IMG/VR virus record: IMGVR_UViG_3300049793_000061
Coordinates: 1 to 34,078 of that record
Length of the DNA stretch: 34,078 nucleotides
Source of the DNA: a virus
Direction: 5' to 3' (one strand)
Part shown: in pieces, positions 9,459 through 22,981 of the stretch
Numbering within the stretch: the stretch's first letter is position 1
How the letters are laid out: every line of letters starts with the position of its first letter
Notes under the pieces: model-generated
Told to the model about the DNA's origin: nothing
What the model saw: the letters and a program-made list of their open reading frames with translations, nothing else
Databases searched by the model: none
Program-made: the position numbers and the translations under genes

Positions 9459-9619
9459 CAGCGAACGAACTCCATTGATTGGCGCAGGCGCTGCTCAAGC
9501 TCTCCTACGTTCACCCCAAGAGCCTCAAGCTGTGCGGCGACGAGAGGAGGGATCTGGATGCCATTGAGGATGGCCGCGCGGGCGATGCGCTGGGGATCAA
9601 GCAAAGGCGAAGTCGGCAT
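9458..9619 (-). CDS. Small protein overlapping the RNA polymerase 3' end, 53 aa
   Basis: Starts inside the last codons of the RNA polymerase gene (23-bp overlap) behind a near-ideal ribosome site AAGGAGATACTCA. The product reads MPTSPLLDPQRIARAAILNG, then IPPLVAAQLEALGVNVGELE, largely helical. It ends in TGATG with the 56-aa gene. Function unknown. Confidence 0.7.
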   Translation of the reverse strand: MPTSPLLDPQRIARAAILNGIQIPPLVAAQLEALGVNVGELEQRLRQSMEFVR

Positions 9620-12206
9620 TGAGTATCTCCTTCAAATCGAGCGGGCCACGCTCTGGGATAACTGGAAGTCTGTTCCGATTGGCAGGCGTTAGGTCACACG
9701 TAGCCTGCTCCAGTATCTCGGAGAGGACATCGTGGGTCTCGTACATCAGAGCGAACTGTTCTCGGATGATGGCGTTGAAGCGTCTGGCTTGAGGGGCGAG
9801 GCACCCGAAGCTGTCGTGGACAGTCGCGATGCTTCGTATTCCTTCTGCAGCCGCTGAATTTGCAACGAGCAGTAGGTGGGCAGCATCAAGCGCATGTACG
9901 AAATTAGGCGCAACTCCGTTGGCCGCTTTGGCTTTATCAATTTCTTTCTTGCTACCTGTTGCGATGTTGAAGCGGACGCGCTCCTTGATGCCGCCGTCTA
10001 CCAAGTAGAGGTTGACGCTCGTCATGTCGTGCTCGTGGTAGCGATTGATCCACGGTATCCCCACAGGCGTCGTCCATGTGACAGGCTTACACTCGTGCGC
10101 CATGGTCTTAGCAATGTCCTGCAGGAACTTCATTGCCTCTGCAGGCTTGTGGATGCGGGTCTCGATGGCGTCGAACACACGCCCAGCGATGTAGCGCGCG
10201 GCCTTGGAGGGCTGCTGTACACCCTGCTTGTTGTAGGGTCCGAACTCGAAACCGATGAACGGGTGCTCCTTACGCTTACCTTCGAGCACCTCACGAGCAA
10301 GAGGCTCCATAAGGTCCGTCTGTTGCTGGCAAGCCATGCCGAACGGCTTCGAAGAGTAGCTGTATGTCATGACGTTGCGCTTCGCCATTTCGCGGCGGTC
10401 CCCATCGTAGTCTAGGAACAGTTGCGCCATCGCACGGATGTCCTTGGAGGCCTTGGCTGCCTTCTCAGGGTCCTCGGCTTCAGGGTCCGGCGTGTGGTTC
10501 AGGTCAGCAGTTATCTGTGTGAACGTGTCCTCAGCTACCACATGATAGACGTCCTGCGGCAGCGGCGAGGAGGTCAAGTTGACCATTACGCCCTCTGCGG
10601 CTCGCGTCATTCCACTCAGATGCTGTAATCCGGAGCAGGAACCATCGTAGCTGGTCGGCAGATGGGTCACATATGACGAGCCCTCCTCCAGCGCTGCTGT
10701 CAACTCGAAGCACGCTGCGAGGTGCAGGAAGGGTTTGCCCGCGTGCATCCACTCGGTATGGACGAGAGGTGCCGAAGCTACTCTCATAATCTGTTGGATA
10801 TTGGCATCGCACCACTGAACCCGCTCCTCCAATGTTCGCTTGCTGATCTTCGTCCCGTCTACCTTGAAGTCTCCAGTGTTAGCCACGTGTATCTTGAGCC
10901 AGCGCAGGCCCTCCTCACCAATGGGCAAGCCATCAGCGAACAGGAACAACGCGCGGACCCTGTCTTCTCTTTGGAAGTTGAAGTGCGGGAGCCCATAGAC
11001 CCGGCCTCGCCAGTCGAGGTTCATGGGCGTGTAGAAAGCTTCGTGCTTCGCCATGGCTTCGGCTACCTGCATATCTAGATCGAACAGAGCTCGGTCCCCT
11101 ATGAGCCCTAAGTTGGCCTTACGGGTCTCGCTCTGCTTGATCTTCCACAGGCGCTGCTCTGCCTCCTCAGCGAACGGGCTGAGCTTTGGCTCGTAGGCGA
11201 CATTCTGTGTGGGAAGCCCTTTCACGCCTATCTGGTAGCCGTGGCACTCACGGATCACGTCCATGACCTTATGGTTGATCTTGAACGGGACTGCCTGAAG
11301 CGTGTTGAGGGCATCGAGCGCAGGTTGCATAGTCCCGGCCTTGATAGCGCGGCGCACTGCGGCCTGAGTATCCTTGTGGAACGAGCGCAGCACTGTGACG
11401 ACGCCATTGACCCTCTCGTCATGGGAGCCTCCACCGGCTGAGGCGGTCCACGGCTTAGGCTCCTGAGCGCTAGGCCAGAACACAGGCCTCGTGTTGGTGG
11501 CGTGGTCTATCGCTGCGTCAAAGACTCCCCAGGCCTCCTGGGACACCGTCAGCATCCATTCGGGGTTACCCGGATACTGCACGCGCTCGAACACCTCAGG
11601 TATCGAGGTGCTCACGACGTTCCAGAGCCAGCCCCCAGCTGTCATAAGCGCCGGTCGGGTCCATATACGCTCCTTGAAGCCCAAGAGGCTCTTAGCGTCC
11701 GCGCGCTGCGCCTCGGAGTGCTCCTTGGTGTTCTTGGCCTTGGCGCGTTCCACCTTGCCCCTTACGAGGTTATAGCGCTGTGCAGTGGTGCGGCCAGCGC
11801 GGGAGGCCCTGGCGATCCTTGCGGCCAATGAGCCGTTGCGCTCGGTGAGCTTCGCTGCCCAGCACTCGTTGCCTATGTTCGAGCCTAAGGACACCAAGGT
11901 ATCCCTAAGCGTCTCACGCAGGCCTATGGAGTGTAGGATGGACTGGATGCACGATAGGGCGATGACACTCGGGGACAGCCCCTTAAGCACCGCCAACAAC
12001 TCAGCCTCAGCGTAGTCTCTTTGCTTGCTACGATGCCCTAGGAGAGCCGCTCGGACACCATCAGTCAGGCGCTCATGGTAGCGCTTAGTGATTGCTAGGC
12101 CGCCTGTGGTGGCTCCCCAGCCTGTGCTGATCTCCTTCCTAAGGTCAGCCTTATCCAGCTTAGTGATTGATCTATTAATTTCGTCTGGGAGTAGTTCTTG
12201 GTCCAT
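9597..12206 (-). CDS. Single-subunit DNA-directed RNA polymerase, T7-like
   Basis: Phage RNA polymerase that would transcribe later genes from phage-specific promoters. At 869 aa it is close to T7 (883). The catalytic residues are present: D521 in SYDGSCSGLQHLSG, K609 and Y617 in AKRNVMTYSYSSKPFG, D798 in TVHDSFG, and the C-terminal ILNADFAFA foot, where T7 ends in DFAFA. The DNA-recognition loop region (about 722-750) differs strongly from T7, so promoter specificity will differ. The start at 12206 has only a weak ribosome site (GGAG about 13 nt upstream). A 300-bp leader with its own repeat array precedes it, downstream of the integrase terminator, suggesting separate control. Confidence 0.97.
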   Translation of the reverse strand: MDQELLPDEINRSITKLDKADLRKEISTGWGATTGGLAITKRYHERLTDGVRAALLGHRSKQRDYAEAELLAVLKGLSPSVIALSCIQSILHSIGLRETLRDTLVSLGSNIGNECWAAKLTERNGSLAARIARASRAGRTTAQRYNLVRGKVERAKAKNTKEHSEAQRADAKSLLGFKERIWTRPALMTAGGWLWNVVSTSIPEVFERVQYPGNPEWMLTVSQEAWGVFDAAIDHATNTRPVFWPSAQEPKPWTASAGGGSHDERVNGVVTVLRSFHKDTQAAVRRAIKAGTMQPALDALNTLQAVPFKINHKVMDVIRECHGYQIGVKGLPTQNVAYEPKLSPFAEEAEQRLWKIKQSETRKANLGLIGDRALFDLDMQVAEAMAKHEAFYTPMNLDWRGRVYGLPHFNFQREDRVRALFLFADGLPIGEEGLRWLKIHVANTGDFKVDGTKISKRTLEERVQWCDANIQQIMRVASAPLVHTEWMHAGKPFLHLAACFELTAALEEGSSYVTHLPTSYDGSCSGLQHLSGMTRAAEGVMVNLTSSPLPQDVYHVVAEDTFTQITADLNHTPDPEAEDPEKAAKASKDIRAMAQLFLDYDGDRREMAKRNVMTYSYSSKPFGMACQQQTDLMEPLAREVLEGKRKEHPFIGFEFGPYNKQGVQQPSKAARYIAGRVFDAIETRIHKPAEAMKFLQDIAKTMAHECKPVTWTTPVGIPWINRYHEHDMTSVNLYLVDGGIKERVRFNIATGSKKEIDKAKAANGVAPNFVHALDAAHLLLVANSAAAEGIRSIATVHDSFGCLAPQARRFNAIIREQFALMYETHDVLSEILEQATCDLTPANRNRLPVIPERGPLDLKEILNADFAFA
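9675..9683 (-). promoter_or_regulatory. GCCAATCGG box inside the RNA polymerase 3' end
   Basis: A perfect copy of the early-leader motif GCCAATCGG with matching flanks (CTAACGCCTGCCAATCGGAA in minus sense). It lies 56 nt upstream of the start of the 53-aa gene. It is within coding sequence (Ala-Asn-Arg), so it could be chance, but its flanks also resemble the boxes at 18454 and 18995. Confidence 0.3.
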
Positions 12207-12234: not shown

Positions 12235-12261
12235 GTCTTAGGGCTCTTAGGAGTTCTTAAG
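12235..12261 (-). promoter_or_regulatory. Phased CCTAAGAG array upstream of RNA polymerase
   Basis: In minus-strand sense the octamers CTTAAGAA, CCTAAGAG and CCTAAGAC follow one another at 10-bp and 9-bp spacing, 29-55 nt before the RNA polymerase start codon. The same octamers in the sense of transcription fill the leader of the late operon at 21,062-21,341. Spacing of one helical turn suggests protein binding on one DNA face; an RNA-level role is also possible. Confidence 0.55.
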
Positions 12262-12373
12262 AGGGCACTGCTCAGAGGGTGTTCGATCTGAGCGACCTTC
12301 GTGCGAACCTTGGCATGAGTTTCAACTAAGTGTCTGATCTTGTTGGAACTGACTGCCTAAAAGGGGTATATTC

Positions 12374-12386
12374 TGATTGGCAATCA
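12374..12386. promoter_or_regulatory. Palindrome TGATTGGCAATCA containing the CCAATC box
   Basis: A perfect inverted repeat around one central G. In minus sense it contains GCCAATCA, one mismatch from the GCCAATCGG box of the early leaders. It lies between the integrase terminator and the RNA polymerase gene, a sensible place for an operator. Confidence 0.4.
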
Positions 12387-12396
12387 TCTGGGCGGT

Positions 12397-12419
12397 AGAA
12401 AGGCCCGCCTGAGCGAGCC
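12397..12419 (-). terminator. Rho-independent terminator after integrase
   Basis: Minus-strand hairpin GGCTCGC-TCAG-GCGGGCC (7 bp, one G-T pair, 4-nt loop) followed by TTTCT. It would end integrase transcripts about 90 nt after the stop and separate them from the RNA polymerase operon. Confidence 0.7.
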
Positions 12420-12510
12420 CTGTAGTGTCTTATAGGTGCTCTAAAGTGTTTGCCAAGGGGAAGTGATTGCGGAAGGGGAACGCTTATCCCCAGACATCAG
12501 AGCCTCCCTG

Positions 12511-13572
12511 CTAACCTGTTGATTTTATAAAGGGTAGCACGGTAGACGGAGCGTCGTTTTGGGTCAATTCCCCACGCCGTGGGTGAAGGTTTTTCAGGGC
12601 CTTCATGAGGGACGCCTTCTCGACGTGGACGTACTTCATGGTCGTCTTGATGTCCTTATGTCCTAGGAAGTCCTTAACAATCGGGAGCGGCTCCCCGTTC
12701 AGGATCAGGCGAGTGGCTGTCGTGTGCCTCATGTTGTGGATGCCCAGCTTGGGAGAATACCCACACGCTTTCACAGCTGCGGCGAGATGCCTTCCCATTG
12801 TCTTGTAATCTGGGCGGGCCTCGGCGCGGATCATGGCGCAGAACTCAGCCAGTAATTGCTCGTCCATAGGCACGTCCCGTGGGGTGTCGGTCTTGGTCTG
12901 ATCCAGCTTGATCCATTCCCCTTGGCAGCTATAGGCGTCAATGGATAAGAACTCGCCCCAGCGGAGCCCAGAGGCACACAGGACTCGCGTAGCGAGGGCT
13001 GCCGCTAGATACCCCTGCCCAGTCAGCCAACGCACCACGGCCTCTTCCTGGGCATCTGTGAACCAGTGTATCCGATGGCCAGCCTCCTTCTTCCAGGGCA
13101 CCACACAGCCTGGGAGGTGCGGATCGCGCGCACGGGCGAACGTCAGGACTGAGCTGGCGGCGCTCAGGTAGCGGTTGATGGTGGCCGGGGCCATGGTCCT
13201 GTTGCCGATCGGGCGCTTCTCAAGGTCTCTCACGAGCCCGTCGAGCACATGGGTGGTCACCTGGGCCATCGGCTTGGTCCCGATGCGGCTGATGATCCAG
13301 TCGAGCCGCTTCTGTCCTCCTGGGTCTCTTCCGCGCTTCCAAGTGGTGTTGGCCGCTCGGCACGCAGCTGCTGCCTCTGAGAATGTGATGCCCAGCTTGG
13401 CGTCCTTGAGGTTCTCAGGCTCGATGCCTGCAGCCTTGACGTAGGCTTCATAGCCTAGGGCCTTCTTCTTGGTCTCGAAGCGCCGTCTGAAGCGCTCGCC
13501 TGTGGCCTTGATGACCACCTCGCCGTACCAGAAGCCAGTGAGCTTCCCGTCTCGTTTCTCAGCGTAGGCCAT
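12511..13572 (-). CDS. int: Tyrosine-type site-specific integrase
   Basis: Site-specific recombinase of the lambda integrase family, 353 aa. The catalytic set is complete: R204 (SGLRWGEFL), K227 (QTKTDTPRDVP), H279 and R282 (HNMRHTTATRL), H305 (FLGHKDIKTT) and nucleophile Y314 (MKYVH). The N-terminal 60 residues resemble an arm-type DNA-binding domain (GKLTGFWYGEVV, then KKKALGYEAYVKAAG). The gene begins in a TAATG junction with the 69-aa gene and is followed by a terminator. It implies that the phage can integrate. Its place next to a T7-type RNA polymerase recalls integrase-bearing T7-like cyanophages. Confidence 0.97.
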   Translation of the reverse strand: MAYAEKRDGKLTGFWYGEVVIKATGERFRRRFETKKKALGYEAYVKAAGIEPENLKDAKLGITFSEAAAACRAANTTWKRGRDPGGQKRLDWIISRIGTKPMAQVTTHVLDGLVRDLEKRPIGNRTMAPATINRYLSAASSVLTFARARDPHLPGCVVPWKKEAGHRIHWFTDAQEEAVVRWLTGQGYLAAALATRVLCASGLRWGEFLSIDAYSCQGEWIKLDQTKTDTPRDVPMDEQLLAEFCAMIRAEARPDYKTMGRHLAAAVKACGYSPKLGIHNMRHTTATRLILNGEPLPIVKDFLGHKDIKTTMKYVHVEKASLMKALKNLHPRRGELTQNDAPSTVLPFIKSTG

Positions 13573-13862: not shown

Positions 13863-14285
13863 CTACCGCTTGTGGGCTCTAACAATCTGACCAACGATAC
13901 CCTTACCCTTAGCGCTCAAGCGTATCAGGCGGTTCCTGCGGTCCATCACGTCATCAAACTGCTCCACGAGGCCAAAGCCCGCCTCATGGTATCTGTTGGT
14001 TGTGCCCAGGTCAGCTAAGTGCCTCGTCATTAGCGAGGGTGTGACGCCTGCGCGTCTTGCGTACTCAGTGACGTTGAGGCCTTCCTCCGCAGCCACGTGC
14101 AGGAATGCTGTGACGTACTGAAGAGGCATAGTGTCTCGAAGGTTCTTGAACGGCTCAAGAGACCTCATGGTGTTCTGCAGCACGGCCTTCTCTTCAGCCG
14201 TGATGCTCTGTCGATGCGTGCTCATAGCCTTAGCCCCAATACTGCTTTGCTGCTCGCTCGTGTAGCCGCCTCCCAGCGCACTCAT
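13863..14285 (-). CDS. MarR-like winged-helix regulator, candidate lysogeny control protein
   Basis: Probable DNA-binding regulator of 140 aa. The core PLQYVTAFLHVAAEEGLNVT, then EYARRAGVTPSLMTRHLADL, is a MarR-type helix-turn-helix in which GVTPSLMTRHL is the recognition helix region. RNRLIRLSAKGKGIVGQI is the wing and the following helix, matching the R-x-x-x-v-x-L-T-x-x-G pattern of MarR proteins. The ATG at 14285 overlaps the stop of the 40-aa membrane gene (ATGA). It is the only full-length regulator near the integrase, so it is the best candidate for a repressor or lysogeny switch protein; no ligand can be inferred. Confidence 0.83.
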   Translation of the reverse strand: MSALGGGYTSEQQSSIGAKAMSTHRQSITAEEKAVLQNTMRSLEPFKNLRDTMPLQYVTAFLHVAAEEGLNVTEYARRAGVTPSLMTRHLADLGTTNRYHEAGFGLVEQFDDVMDRRNRLIRLSAKGKGIVGQIVRAHKR

Positions 14286-19648: not shown

Positions 19649-19939
19649 AGGCTTACCTAGGTGCGTGGGGATAGCCGTGGGCATTGGCCATGAACGGGTC
19701 CCCTTTAGGGGCCTGAAATCCTTACACTTTTGTCCAATGGGACTTCAAAAAGTCGGACTAAACCGGCTGCTGCTGCTCGGCTGAATACTCATGGGTCCAA
19801 GTCTAAAAATGGGACCTCTATTGCGTGCGGTTTGTGTTGCATATTTACCACTTTTGGGGGTCATATGTAGCATTATCAATGACTTAGTTCAAACTCGTGC
19901 CAAGGTACAGACCAGACGCGCCTTTGATGCGCTGATAAC

Positions 19940-20024: not shown

Positions 20025-20984
20025 TTGCCTTTAGAGACCGCCACCTACCTCACGGACCTCGTCGCCTCCAATCCGGCCCATACTGACGCCCTGTCCCAGG
20101 CCGATAGTCACATGAGGCTCCTCAAGAGCACCCTGAAGGCTACGTTCCCCAATTTCACTTCCGGTTCCCTTGCGTCCACCCAGGCTCAGCTCGATGCTGC
20201 GGTCTCTACGGCCACCGGCGCGAGTCCGATGCGCATTCCCTTGGGCACTGCGGCGCTCCCAGGCCTCACGCCGATTGGTGACACCAACACAGGACTTCTG
20301 AGCCCCGCCGCAGACCAGCTTGCGTTCTCACTCGCTGGCGTTCAGGTGCTGCTCATGGGCGGCTCTGCGCTCGTGACGAGCCTCGGTGTCGCTGCTCCCG
20401 CTATCTTGAGCACTGGAGCGTACTCAGGCGGCACAGGACAGCTTGTTCCCATCGGGTCCACGCTTCTCTGGTGGGATGATGTCCTGCCAACTGAAGGCGG
20501 TTACGCTTGGTGTAACGGCCAGATCATCGCTTCTGCGAACACTGTGTGTCCTGTGCTGCTCGCGCGCTGGGGCACGAGGTTCGGCGGTAACGGCACAACC
20601 ACGATGGGCGTGCCTGATCTGCGGGATACTGTTCCGGTCGGTAAGTCGACCATGGGTGGCGTGGCTTCGCGTGCGCTGCAGACCCTTACGAACACCGTGC
20701 TCGGCACCCTCATCGGCCTCGCTAACAACGTTCTAGTGACGCTCAACCTTCCGGCCTATACGCCGTCTGGCTCTGTGGCTACGACGGACGTGACGGGGTC
20801 AGGCGCAGGCCTTGTAAGGCCGGTTGGATCGAACGTTGGTGTTGGTGGCTCAGCAACAGGCGGCGTCATTGTCAGCCCGACGCTATCTTCAAGCTTTACG
20901 GGCACGGCCCAAGGAGGCACCAGTACTCCTGTGAACAACGTGCAGCCGTCGACGACTTGTAACTACATTTTGAGGCTCGCCTAA
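20025..20984 (+). CDS. Tail fibre protein with phage collar domain
   Basis: Receptor-binding or adhesin-type tail fibre, 319 aa. The start is TTG (20025), chosen because MPLETATYLTDLVASNPAHT, then DALSQADSHMRLLKSTLKAT, is the standard N-terminus of this family, which anchors the fibre. Residues about 140-215 form the tail collar domain (LWWDDV, GYAWCNGQIIASA, WGTRFGGNGTTTMGVPDLRD, TVPVGKSTMGG), and the C-terminus ends TTCNYILRLA, as in many collar proteins. It stands alone between the control region and a terminator, so it is transcribed separately from the virion operon. No good ribosome site is visible, and expression may be low. Confidence 0.9.
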   Translation: MPLETATYLTDLVASNPAHTDALSQADSHMRLLKSTLKATFPNFTSGSLASTQAQLDAAVSTATGASPMRIPLGTAALPGLTPIGDTNTGLLSPAADQLAFSLAGVQVLLMGGSALVTSLGVAAPAILSTGAYSGGTGQLVPIGSTLLWWDDVLPTEGGYAWCNGQIIASANTVCPVLLARWGTRFGGNGTTTMGVPDLRDTVPVGKSTMGGVASRALQTLTNTVLGTLIGLANNVLVTLNLPAYTPSGSVATTDVTGSGAGLVRPVGSNVGVGGSATGGVIVSPTLSSSFTGTAQGGTSTPVNNVQPSTTCNYILRLA

Positions 20985-21042: not shown

Positions 21043-21064
21043 GCTCGCTCGCGGGCTTCTTCTT
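21043..21064 (+). terminator. Terminator GCTCG-CTCG-CGGGC plus TTCTTCTT
   Basis: Five-bp G+C stem with one G-T pair, 4-nt loop and a T-rich tail. Its sequence closely matches the integrase terminator at 12397-12419 (GCTCGCTC, then GCGGGC, then the T-tract). It separates the tail fibre from the virion operon. Confidence 0.6.
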
Positions 21065-21341
21065 AAGAGTTCTAAAGCTTCTTAAGAGAACCTTCGGTTT
21101 CCGATGATCACTATCCTAAGAGTACCTAAGAGCCTCCCAAGAGCATTAGGATCATCTAGTATAATATTATAATTATAATACTAAGAGAGAATAAGAGTCC
21201 TTATGTGCCTTCCTAAGAGCGCTTCTTCGAAGATCACTTAGGCCTTCCTAAGAAGCGACCAAGAGCAATCAATCAACTTCAATCTGTGTGTCCTCTTCCA
21301 GGACCGCCTAGGTGCGCTTAAGCCCTAAGAACTCTTAAGAG
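21062..21341 (+). promoter_or_regulatory. CCTAAGAG octamer array, leader of the virion operon
   Basis: Twelve octamers of consensus CCTAAGAG, all on the plus strand, start at 21062, 21081, 21115, 21125, 21136, 21180, 21190, 21212, 21248, 21258, 21324 and 21334. Five of the spacings are 10 bp and one is 11 bp, so most copies form helically phased pairs or a triplet. A degenerate copy (CTAAAGCT) at 21072 fills the first gap. The last copy, in the palindrome CTCTTAAGAG (21332-21341), overlaps the ribosome site of the next gene. Not a CRISPR: no uniform spacers. Likely a binding array for a regulator at DNA or RNA level. Confidence 0.6.
21160..21179 (+). promoter_or_regulatory. A+T-rich island with three TATAAT strings
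   Basis: TATAAT occurs at 21160-21165, 21168-21173 and 21174-21179 in an otherwise G+C-rich genome. These match the bacterial sigma-70 -10 element, but no TTGACA-like -35 lies 16-18 bp upstream. It could be an easily melted site for the phage polymerase or an extended host promoter aided by the array. Confidence 0.4.
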
Positions 21342-21346
21342 GCACC

Positions 21347-22981
21347 ATGTCACTCGAACACATCCGCGACCTTGCAAAGTACGGCGTCCTTTGTGACCCC
21401 GATCCCTACGACCTCCCAGACACCGCTTGGTCCTTCGGCCTCAACGTCCGCTTCCGCAACGGCAAGGTCTCTTCAGGCCCAGTGTTCCGCAAGGCCTTCG
21501 AACTCGGCACAGCGAACCCGCGCTACAGCTTCGCCGCCTCCCCAACATCAGGCCTCGACCTTCTCTTCACTGGCTACCTCAACGGCAAGCTCTACAAGTT
21601 CAACGGCACCGAGACGGACTTCACTCTCGCAGGATACACCCCGTCCTCTGCAGAAGCCCAGTGGTCCAACACAAGCCTAGGCAACGTCCTCTACGTCAAT
21701 CGCTCCGACAGGGCTCCTTGGTACCTCAGGACCTCAGACGTAGCCTTCCAGAACCTTGGCGTCATCGGCGGTGCCCCAGCCTCATGGGACTCCACGTACA
21801 CCTGTGGCCTCCTGCGCACCTGTGGCGGCGCTCTCGTAGCGCTCAACGTCACCAAGGGCGCAACGAACTTCCCGACGATGATCAAGACCTCCAGCATCCC
21901 GCTGTCAGGTGTGATCCCCGCTTCGTGGGACTTCTCCCTACCGAACACGCTAGCCACCGAGAACATCCTCGCTGAGATGAAGTCTAGCATCGTAGATGCC
22001 CAGACCCTCGGCCCCCAGCTCGTGATCTATGGCCTCCAAGAAGCATGGATGATGCAGGCCGATGGCTCGCAGCAAGTCTACAACTACCGCAAGCTCCCGT
22101 TCCAGAAGGGCTCGCTGAACGCCAACTGCTCCCTAGAACTCGACGGCAAGCATTACGTCTTCGGTGTCGACGACATCTGGATGCACGACGGAAACTCTGA
22201 AGTCTCCATAGTCGACAAGGCCAACCGGGACTTCATCTTCAGCTCCATCAACCTCTCGAAGAAGAACCGATGCTTCATTCAGCACAATCCACAGCTGAAG
22301 GAAATATCGTTCTGCTACATCTCTGGTGACAGAGGCGTAGGCTTCCTGGGTGAGCCTGACGGCTGCAACAGAGCTGCGGTGTACAACTACACCGACAAGA
22401 CGATGACCTTCGATGACTTGCCCCTGGTGTTCTCAGCGTCCAATGCGAACCTCAGCATCTCAGCGACCTACGCGACCACCACGGCCACCTACGACACCAC
22501 GGGTGGCTCCTACCTAGACCAAGAGGACGGCTTCAAGCGGACCCCAGTATTCGTAGGAACCGCCAGCACCACCTACAGCCTCGCTACTGCCTTGTACGCT
22601 CAGGACCTCTTCGGTCAGGGCTCCACGGTATCGTTCCCGGTTGATACGCACGCCACGCTGGCTAGGGTGCTAGAAAGAGACGGCATCGACCTCGACAGCC
22701 TCAACGCAGACTTGCGTGGCTACAAGACGCTCTCCTCGCTCTATCCGCAGGGACGCCTTGGTGATGGCGCGTCTACTTTGATGTTCTCTGTGGGCTCCTC
22801 GGACTACTCCAACGTGGCTCCTGTGTTCAGTGACTATCAGGCGTTCGATGGTGCAGCCCTCTACAAGCTGGACTTCAACGTCGGTGGCCGCTTCCTCTCG
22901 ATCCACGCCAAGTTCTCCGACTACAAAGAGATGTCCCTGTCAGGCTTCGACCTAGACCTACACGCAACGGGTAATTCCTGA
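21347..22981 (+). CDS. Large tail-associated virion protein, 544 aa
   Basis: Probable structural protein of the tail or tail hub, first gene of the virion operon. It is beta-rich with repeated short strands and W/Y-containing turns (FRFRNGKVSSGPVF-type start, then DLLFTGYLNGKLYKFNG, GKHYVFGVDDIWMHDG, EISFCYISGDRGVGF), suggestive of a beta-propeller or beta-sandwich; no precise family is claimed. The ribosome site AAGAGG lies 5 nt before the ATG. The stop overlaps the next gene (TGATG). Confidence 0.75.
   Translation: MSLEHIRDLAKYGVLCDPDPYDLPDTAWSFGLNVRFRNGKVSSGPVFRKAFELGTANPRYSFAASPTSGLDLLFTGYLNGKLYKFNGTETDFTLAGYTPSSAEAQWSNTSLGNVLYVNRSDRAPWYLRTSDVAFQNLGVIGGAPASWDSTYTCGLLRTCGGALVALNVTKGATNFPTMIKTSSIPLSGVIPASWDFSLPNTLATENILAEMKSSIVDAQTLGPQLVIYGLQEAWMMQADGSQQVYNYRKLPFQKGSLNANCSLELDGKHYVFGVDDIWMHDGNSEVSIVDKANRDFIFSSINLSKKNRCFIQHNPQLKEISFCYISGDRGVGFLGEPDGCNRAAVYNYTDKTMTFDDLPLVFSASNANLSISATYATTTATYDTTGGSYLDQEDGFKRTPVFVGTASTTYSLATALYAQDLFGQGSTVSFPVDTHATLARVLERDGIDLDSLNADLRGYKTLSSLYPQGRLGDGASTLMFSVGSSDYSNVAPVFSDYQAFDGAALYKLDFNVGGRFLSIHAKFSDYKEMSLSGFDLDLHATGNS

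Follow-up and report, generated by a model that had tools for sequence, protein, structure and literature searches.

Control of the phage RNA polymerase (RNAP) by a MarR-like regulator has been proposed for temperate T7-like phages, and the parts of the LUZ100 description available to us give the arrangement closest to the one analyzed here (PMC10134795). In LUZ100, a MarR-like regulator and a tyrosine integrase lie upstream of a T7-type RNAP gene, a terminator follows the integrase gene, and a phage-specific promoter sits immediately in front of the RNAP gene, with a feedback loop and MarR control proposed for it; the genome follows the T7-like order, with eight phage promoters spread over it (PMC10134795). 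MarR sites on either side of the RNAP promoter are a further trait expected of this cassette type. Rhizobium phage Pasto (MT708545), whose recorded host is Bradyrhizobium japonicum, likewise carries an HTH regulator, a tyrosine integrase and, later, an RNAP, and has a zinc peptidase gene upstream. The question these temperate phages pose is how a very active polymerase stays silent in the lysogen and then serves both halves of the genome.

Here, we describe a phage of a temperate soil-phage group that has a compact layout for that question, with a host-type promoter candidate followed by a hairpin and a single candidate phage promoter for each arm. The stretch of DNA analyzed, hereafter the window, is the whole virus record of 34,078 bases (57% GC). 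Its minus strand reads, in transcription order, from small early genes through a peptidase, a MarR-like regulator, a tyrosine integrase and a T7-type RNAP to a single-strand binding protein, an endonuclease, a primase/helicase and a DNA polymerase, and its plus strand carries the tail, virion, terminase and portal genes. The genes on which our argument turns are the following.

9597..12206, minus strand: T7-type single-subunit RNA polymerase (phrog_414, E 1.3e-172; 28% identity to T7 RNAP in an alignment)
12511..13572, minus strand: tyrosine integrase, directly upstream of the RNAP gene
13863..14285, minus strand: MarR-like winged-helix regulator (phrog_9665, transcriptional regulator; predicted fold)
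20025..20984, plus strand: tail collar-like gene, the first of the late arm
21347..22981, plus strand: virion structural gene (phrog_3287), behind the late octamer array

As far as the available parts of the LUZ100 description allow the comparison, the T7-type RNAP with a tyrosine integrase directly upstream, and a MarR-like regulator upstream of the integrase, match the LUZ100-type cassette. Unlike in LUZ100, the virion genes form an opposite arm, and the candidate promoter described below (element B) is seen once per arm. The arrangement also departs from that of the Autographiviridae, in that early, middle and late genes do not run in one direction and the virion module is not T7-type. The portal gene is assigned to phrog_1216, and the best tblastn matches are a Microcystis phage, a Caudoviricetes record and Escherichia phages of about 76 kb; the structural gene has relatives in Pseudomonas phages near 45 kb, and identities are below 60% in all of these cases. 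The genome is a mosaic, with a T7-type replication arm and a portal/virion module most like those of non-T7 phages. We conclude that, on the LUZ100 account as available to us, this phage is a two-armed variant of the LUZ100-type temperate T7-like cassette whose virion module has its nearest relatives outside the T7 group. GC and AT skew both flip sign near 21 kb, at the place where the direction of transcription switches. In Pasto, the zinc peptidase gene may be compared with the peptidase gene of this phage, and the RNAP, unlike here, lies several genes away from the integrase; the Pasto regulator was considered as a homologue of the present one and set aside, as BLASTP showed no similarity.

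The 140-residue regulator encoded upstream of the integrase is predicted to fold as a MarR-type winged helix: its AlphaFold2 model (pLDDT 82.7) finds its best PDB matches in the MarR family (E 1.2e-5), and the sequence-only Pfam match is weak (E 0.066, below the cut-off).

Relatives were reached through the virion module. BLASTN of the RNAP/integrase region against phage GenBank records gave no match, nor did the RNAP as a single query against viral contigs, and a single-query scan with the gene at 21347 returned only the two sister phages (G001 and G002). The portal protein as query against viral contigs yielded 55 loci, and an RNAP was then present in 10 of the 14 records searched, G010 to G013 being those with no RNAP match. 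All relatives have two opposite arms, and in nine of their records gene order is identical over the extent that each covers. A scan of bacterial genomes recovered an RNAP relative in a Bradyrhizobium genome; among 265 Bradyrhizobium genomes, five contain RNAP matches, three of them strong, and the RNAP of one prophage, G107, is identical to that of G006.

Our main finding is a pair of closely similar sequences, which we call element B, placed in transcription sense before each arm.

12307..12342, minus strand: element B in the RNAP leader, a candidate phage-RNAP promoter; by analogy with relatives, transcription would start near 12303
19871..19906, plus strand: element B upstream of the tail gene, a candidate phage-RNAP promoter with a predicted start near 19910

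When each RNAP leader was compared with its own genome as ungapped 36-mers, with shuffled leaders as the control, the two copies in the window proved identical at 29 of 36 positions and formed its best non-self match. In 8/10 genomes, no other 36-bp match between the RNAP leader and its own genome scores as high as this pair, with a tie in G003 and no clear element B pair as best match in G034; this count covers the genomes whose records contain an RNAP leader, that is, excluding G007, G009 and G014. The partner lies in the late leader, on the opposite strand and in transcription sense. The observed score was reached by none of 40 shuffles for the window, G001, G002, G004, G005 and G015, and by one to three of 40 for G008, G034, G003 and G006. 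Ten further loci had enough upstream DNA for the comparison (L125, L129, L133 and L134 had too little), with near-identical loci such as L140 and L141 each counted; the best match was on the opposite strand in nine of these ten, and eight of the nine matches included the phage-specific half of the element, the match in L126 being confined to the left half. No pair was found in L128, whose record reaches just 4.9 kb upstream of the RNAP. Searches of the window, G001, G003 and G015 with core patterns from both copies, allowing at most one quarter of the letters to mismatch, revealed no third site.

The left half of element B (TCAANNNNTTAG) is common to the group; the right, downstream half varies from phage to phage and agrees between the two arms of any one phage. 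In 10 of 16 late copies, from a list compiled by hand, the TTA anchor is followed at exactly positions 23-26 by T-[AT]-N-A, which frequently reads TATAG or TATAC, and the other six lack it at that offset. A TATA-like step is found in only 4 of 11 RNAP-leader copies; the window has TTCGC in its place there, and its late copy has TACAG where relatives have TATAG or TATAC. In L142, GACACGCTATAGAAGAAGG occurs at both sites, as far as TATAGA, which we take to be a T7/SP6-like start close to the SP6 promoter. Element B therefore resembles T7/SP6-type promoters in being asymmetric, in lying in transcription sense, and in having a phage-specific half followed by TATAG or TATAC in many late copies; it differs from them in its conserved TCAANNNNTTAG further upstream and in the poor TATA step of the RNAP-leader copies. 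Since it is asymmetric, oriented and phage-specific, it fits a single-subunit polymerase promoter better than a dimer operator. The RNAPs themselves differ among phages at residues that, in an alignment with T7 RNAP, presumably correspond to the T7 specificity loop, a variation compatible with phage-specific promoters and not a test of them. Collectively, these comparisons make it likely that element B is the phage promoter of both arms, and control of both arms by one polymerase acting through it is well supported at the level of sequence. The original prediction, that one regulator or polymerase controls both arms by way of octamers shared between them, is supported in part: a shared polymerase is the most plausible explanation, and the evidence for it lies in the element B pair and not in the octamers. 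In the LUZ100 cassette, as far as it is described in the parts available, the counterpart of candidate element B would be the phage-specific promoter before the RNAP gene.

A conserved non-coding block, GGGTCCCCTTT...GACTTCAA...GCTGCTGCTG, lies upstream of the late element B at 19700-19790 of the window and is also present in the late leaders of G001-G006, G008, G015 and G034.

Further upstream, the RNAP leader contains three features ahead of element B.

12429..12456, minus strand: host-type promoter candidate TTGGCA-16-TATAAG, directly before the hairpin
12397..12420, minus strand: GC-rich hairpin followed by CUUUCU, terminator-like, between the host-type promoter candidate and element B
12369..12381, minus strand: element A, GCCAATCAGAATA, with related words before several early minus-strand genes

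A TTGNNN-16/17-TANNNN pattern, with a GC-rich hairpin no more than about 10-20 bases downstream of it, is present in 10/10 leaders, a count for which the pattern was broadened to ACTA and TCTA after the sequences had been viewed; the second hexamer has TATA in eight of the ten, and G004 offers a second, weaker reading. The TATA form also occurs at -178 or -179 in 9 of 14 further loci, many of them closely related. A stricter consensus scan of the window did not report this promoter candidate. The hairpin (-15.2 kcal/mol, z -3.98) has homologues at a like place in the RNAP leaders of relatives; the terminator scan of the window did not report it because its T run is short. Compared with the terminator after the LUZ100 integrase, as given in the available parts of that account, it has the same kind of position in a conserved layout, although unreported by the scan, and the host-type promoter candidate right before it is a difference from LUZ100. 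Element A could be an early promoter or operator. Words like GCCAATCGGMACA start at 12381, 18462, 19003, 19020 and 19235 on the minus strand of the window, and another, at 9683, falls inside the RNAP gene; relatives such as L128 and L131 have longer versions. As a promoter of both arms, element A (GCCAATCGG) was rejected, as it recurs before the early genes of one arm and shows no pairing between arms like that of element B. A look-alike of element A precedes the late element B copy in G001 and G006.

All these features are upstream of the octamers.

12270..12293, minus strand: hairpin GCTCAGA...TCTGAGC, between element B and the octamers
12235..12261, minus strand: octamer array CTTAAGAA (12261-12254), CCTAAGAG (12251-12244) and CCTAAGAC (12242-12235), spaced 10 and 9 bp
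21062..21340, plus strand: late-leader octamer array, with CYTAAGA at 21062, 21081, 21115, 21125, 21212, 21247, 21324 and 21334

The three octamers before the RNAP gene, in the sense of that operon and with start-to-start spacings of 10 and 9 bp, were found exactly as first described; 29 nt separate the end of the array from the RNAP ATG (12206). The claim that the same word precedes both operons in transcription sense was borne out as well, by counts above those of shuffled sequence in both leaders. The window holds 21 copies of CYTAAGA against 5.15 expected, a number that none of 100 dinucleotide shuffles reached. In the 304-bp RNAP leader the word occurs three times in sense orientation, where shuffles average 0.09 copies (P = 1e-4), and the two close pairs there were reached by 0/20,000 shuffles; the 362-bp late leader has eight sense copies where shuffles average 0.25, again reached by 0/20,000. 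These P values are optimistic because the word had been chosen in the original prediction after inspection of the sequence. The sister phages provide independent sequence support for the array. Both retain the late array and a related block in the RNAP leader, which is degenerate in G001 (no exact CYTAAGA) and keeps two exact copies in G002, and in an alignment of the three species 22/31 array columns are invariant, compared with 78/214 elsewhere in the leader.

Outside these three phages, the block is missing from the RNAP leader (7/10 leaders), and none of 14 further loci has an RNAP leader with two or more octamers. The octamers are therefore not essential to the common circuit. No octamers were seen in the two Pasto stretches examined, and the available parts of the LUZ100 report make no mention of such arrays (PMC10134795).

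Late leaders of the distant relatives mostly have roughly 10-bp-periodic repeats of CC-TA-GG type. The repeat unit is CYTAAGAG in this phage and its two sisters, CCTAGG and CCTAAGA in G006, and CCTAAGG and CCTTAGG in G005, G007 and G008. In the window, late-array self-similarity at lag 10 reaches z 8.3, and in eight of nine late leaders, with regions picked by eye, self-similarity is strongest at a lag of 8-12 bp; the exception is G007, with its peak at lag 19 and 10 in second place. That a lag of about 10 bp persists across genomes despite differing units points to DNA helical phasing, and a repeat of one helical turn would favor a DNA-bound protein, either cooperative or wrapping. In the RNAP leader the octamers are a lineage-specific addition; in the late leader they are part of a wider feature of the group. 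Within the late leaders we also observed an AT-rich TATAATATTATAATTATAAT box at 21160-21180, inside the octamer array of the window, a TATAAT within a hairpin at the matching place in G002, and in G006 (38647-39400) a tandem duplication of about 250 bp that spans element B and the CCTAAGA/CCTAGG repeats.

What the octamers do can be weighed against their position and their distribution. It is very improbable that they are themselves phage polymerase promoters, and highly likely that they are not the promoter of the phage RNAP. Their sense orientation before both genes would suit such a role, and some T7-type promoters have a start region similar to TAAGAG. However, the promoter of a single-subunit RNAP measures about 20 bp, and an 8-bp core repeated every 9-10 bp offers neither the length nor the room for one; no stretch of about 17-23 bp is conserved together with a start region, as such a promoter would require; the units abut ribosome-binding sites; and most RNAP leaders of the group lack them, where element B is present. 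In the RNAP leader they lie 3' of the host-type promoter candidate, the 12397..12420 hairpin and element B, between the hairpin at 12293-12270 and the ribosome-binding site. Their shortness and the presence of better candidates upstream make it probable that they are not a promoter, and their position downstream of all promoter candidates would place them within the 5' leader of the RNAP mRNA. The last point fits an action on the RNA, by which Shine-Dalgarno-like or mutually pairing units (CUCUUA with UAAGAG) would set translation of the RNAP and of the first late genes. Every close octamer pair is in sense orientation, a 6-bp hairpin is predicted between units 1 and 2 (12261-12244), and before the gene at 21347 the units extend into the ribosome-binding site, the likely site being overlapped by the CYTAAGA at 21334. 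We nonetheless regard this explanation as unlikely, given that folding is only slightly more favorable than in shuffles (z -1.86 and -2.15) and that the lag of roughly 10 bp in several genomes with differing units speaks for phasing of the DNA.

Other explanations assign the repeats to DNA transactions or to chance. Excisionase/Cox/Apl-type or integrase arm sites, which would make the array part of the attachment site and the same protein a regulator of the late arm, are quite improbable: the array does sit in the gap between integrase and RNAP, where prophage ends map, and Apl and Cox sites typically contain short direct repeats with a spacing of about 10 bp, but the tRNA-derived junction lies at the integrase end, about 200 bp from the array, with the promoter, hairpin and element B intervening, the late-leader arrays are far larger, and other phages with the same attachment layout have no array in the RNAP leader. 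If instead the late array beside the AT-rich box at 21160-21180 were a pac/cos site or an origin, with the RNAP-leader copies as a minor duplicate, the skew change near 21 kb would be accounted for, and phased repeats would be in keeping with a terminase small subunit that wraps DNA; since the skew switch equally matches the change in transcription direction, we consider this improbable. If a short word had simply been duplicated locally, and neutrally, in AT-richer leaders, the drift of the unit sequences between lineages would be explained, yet the three-species alignment shows the block to be better conserved than the rest of a diverged RNAP leader, and we give this explanation a slim chance. 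Cooperative operator arrays of short direct repeats are found with phage 186 Apl, P2 Cox and ribbon-helix-helix repressors, and the octamers are likewise short direct repeats about one helical turn apart; unlike in those arrays, the RNAP-leader octamers are downstream of the promoter candidates. From the sequence pattern, it is tempting to propose that they form a cooperative DNA operator, a phased array for a phage regulator, although we hold this tentatively, at somewhat less than even chances.

Taken together, we favor on balance the explanation that the phage's own RNAP co-controls both arms through element B and that the octamers form a second, downstream layer. Host RNA polymerase would yield a low level of RNAP by reading past the hairpin. 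The RNAP would then fire element B at its own gene, a feedback, and would also fire element B at the late operon; the MarR-like regulator would damp this circuit in the lysogen. The octamer arrays might, as a guess, bind a phage regulator cooperatively and tune the expression of the RNAP and late genes. A broader proposal, conceivable though doubtful, is that such two-armed temperate phages have only two promoters for their own polymerase, one before the polymerase gene next to the attachment site and the other before the virion operon on the opposite strand, with a specificity that varies from phage to phage, plus a fast-evolving phased downstream array that one lineage would have extended from its late leader to its polymerase leader. 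If this is true, the helically phased repeat array would be a new kind of downstream regulatory element. Each element B pair, taken with its own polymerase, also adds to a naturally occurring series of RNAP-promoter pairs that are candidates for orthogonality.

Two Bradyrhizobium prophages, G015 and G107, have a partial host tRNA (Trp and Cys, respectively) immediately before the RNAP leader and an intact tRNA gene at the integrase end. In these relatives the attachment site is therefore located in the interval from the integrase to the RNAP leader. By analogy, that of the window would lie between the 3' end of the integrase gene and the RNAP leader; the attachment core was not identified in the window itself, and several non-integrated relatives have tRNA-like stretches at a like place. 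Finally, a GGGGGGTAAGGGGGG-like motif, none of which was seen in the lineage of the window, precedes virion genes in the late leaders of G003, G004, G005, G007, G008, G015 and G034, where it is possibly a quadruplex, a promoter or a packaging signal.
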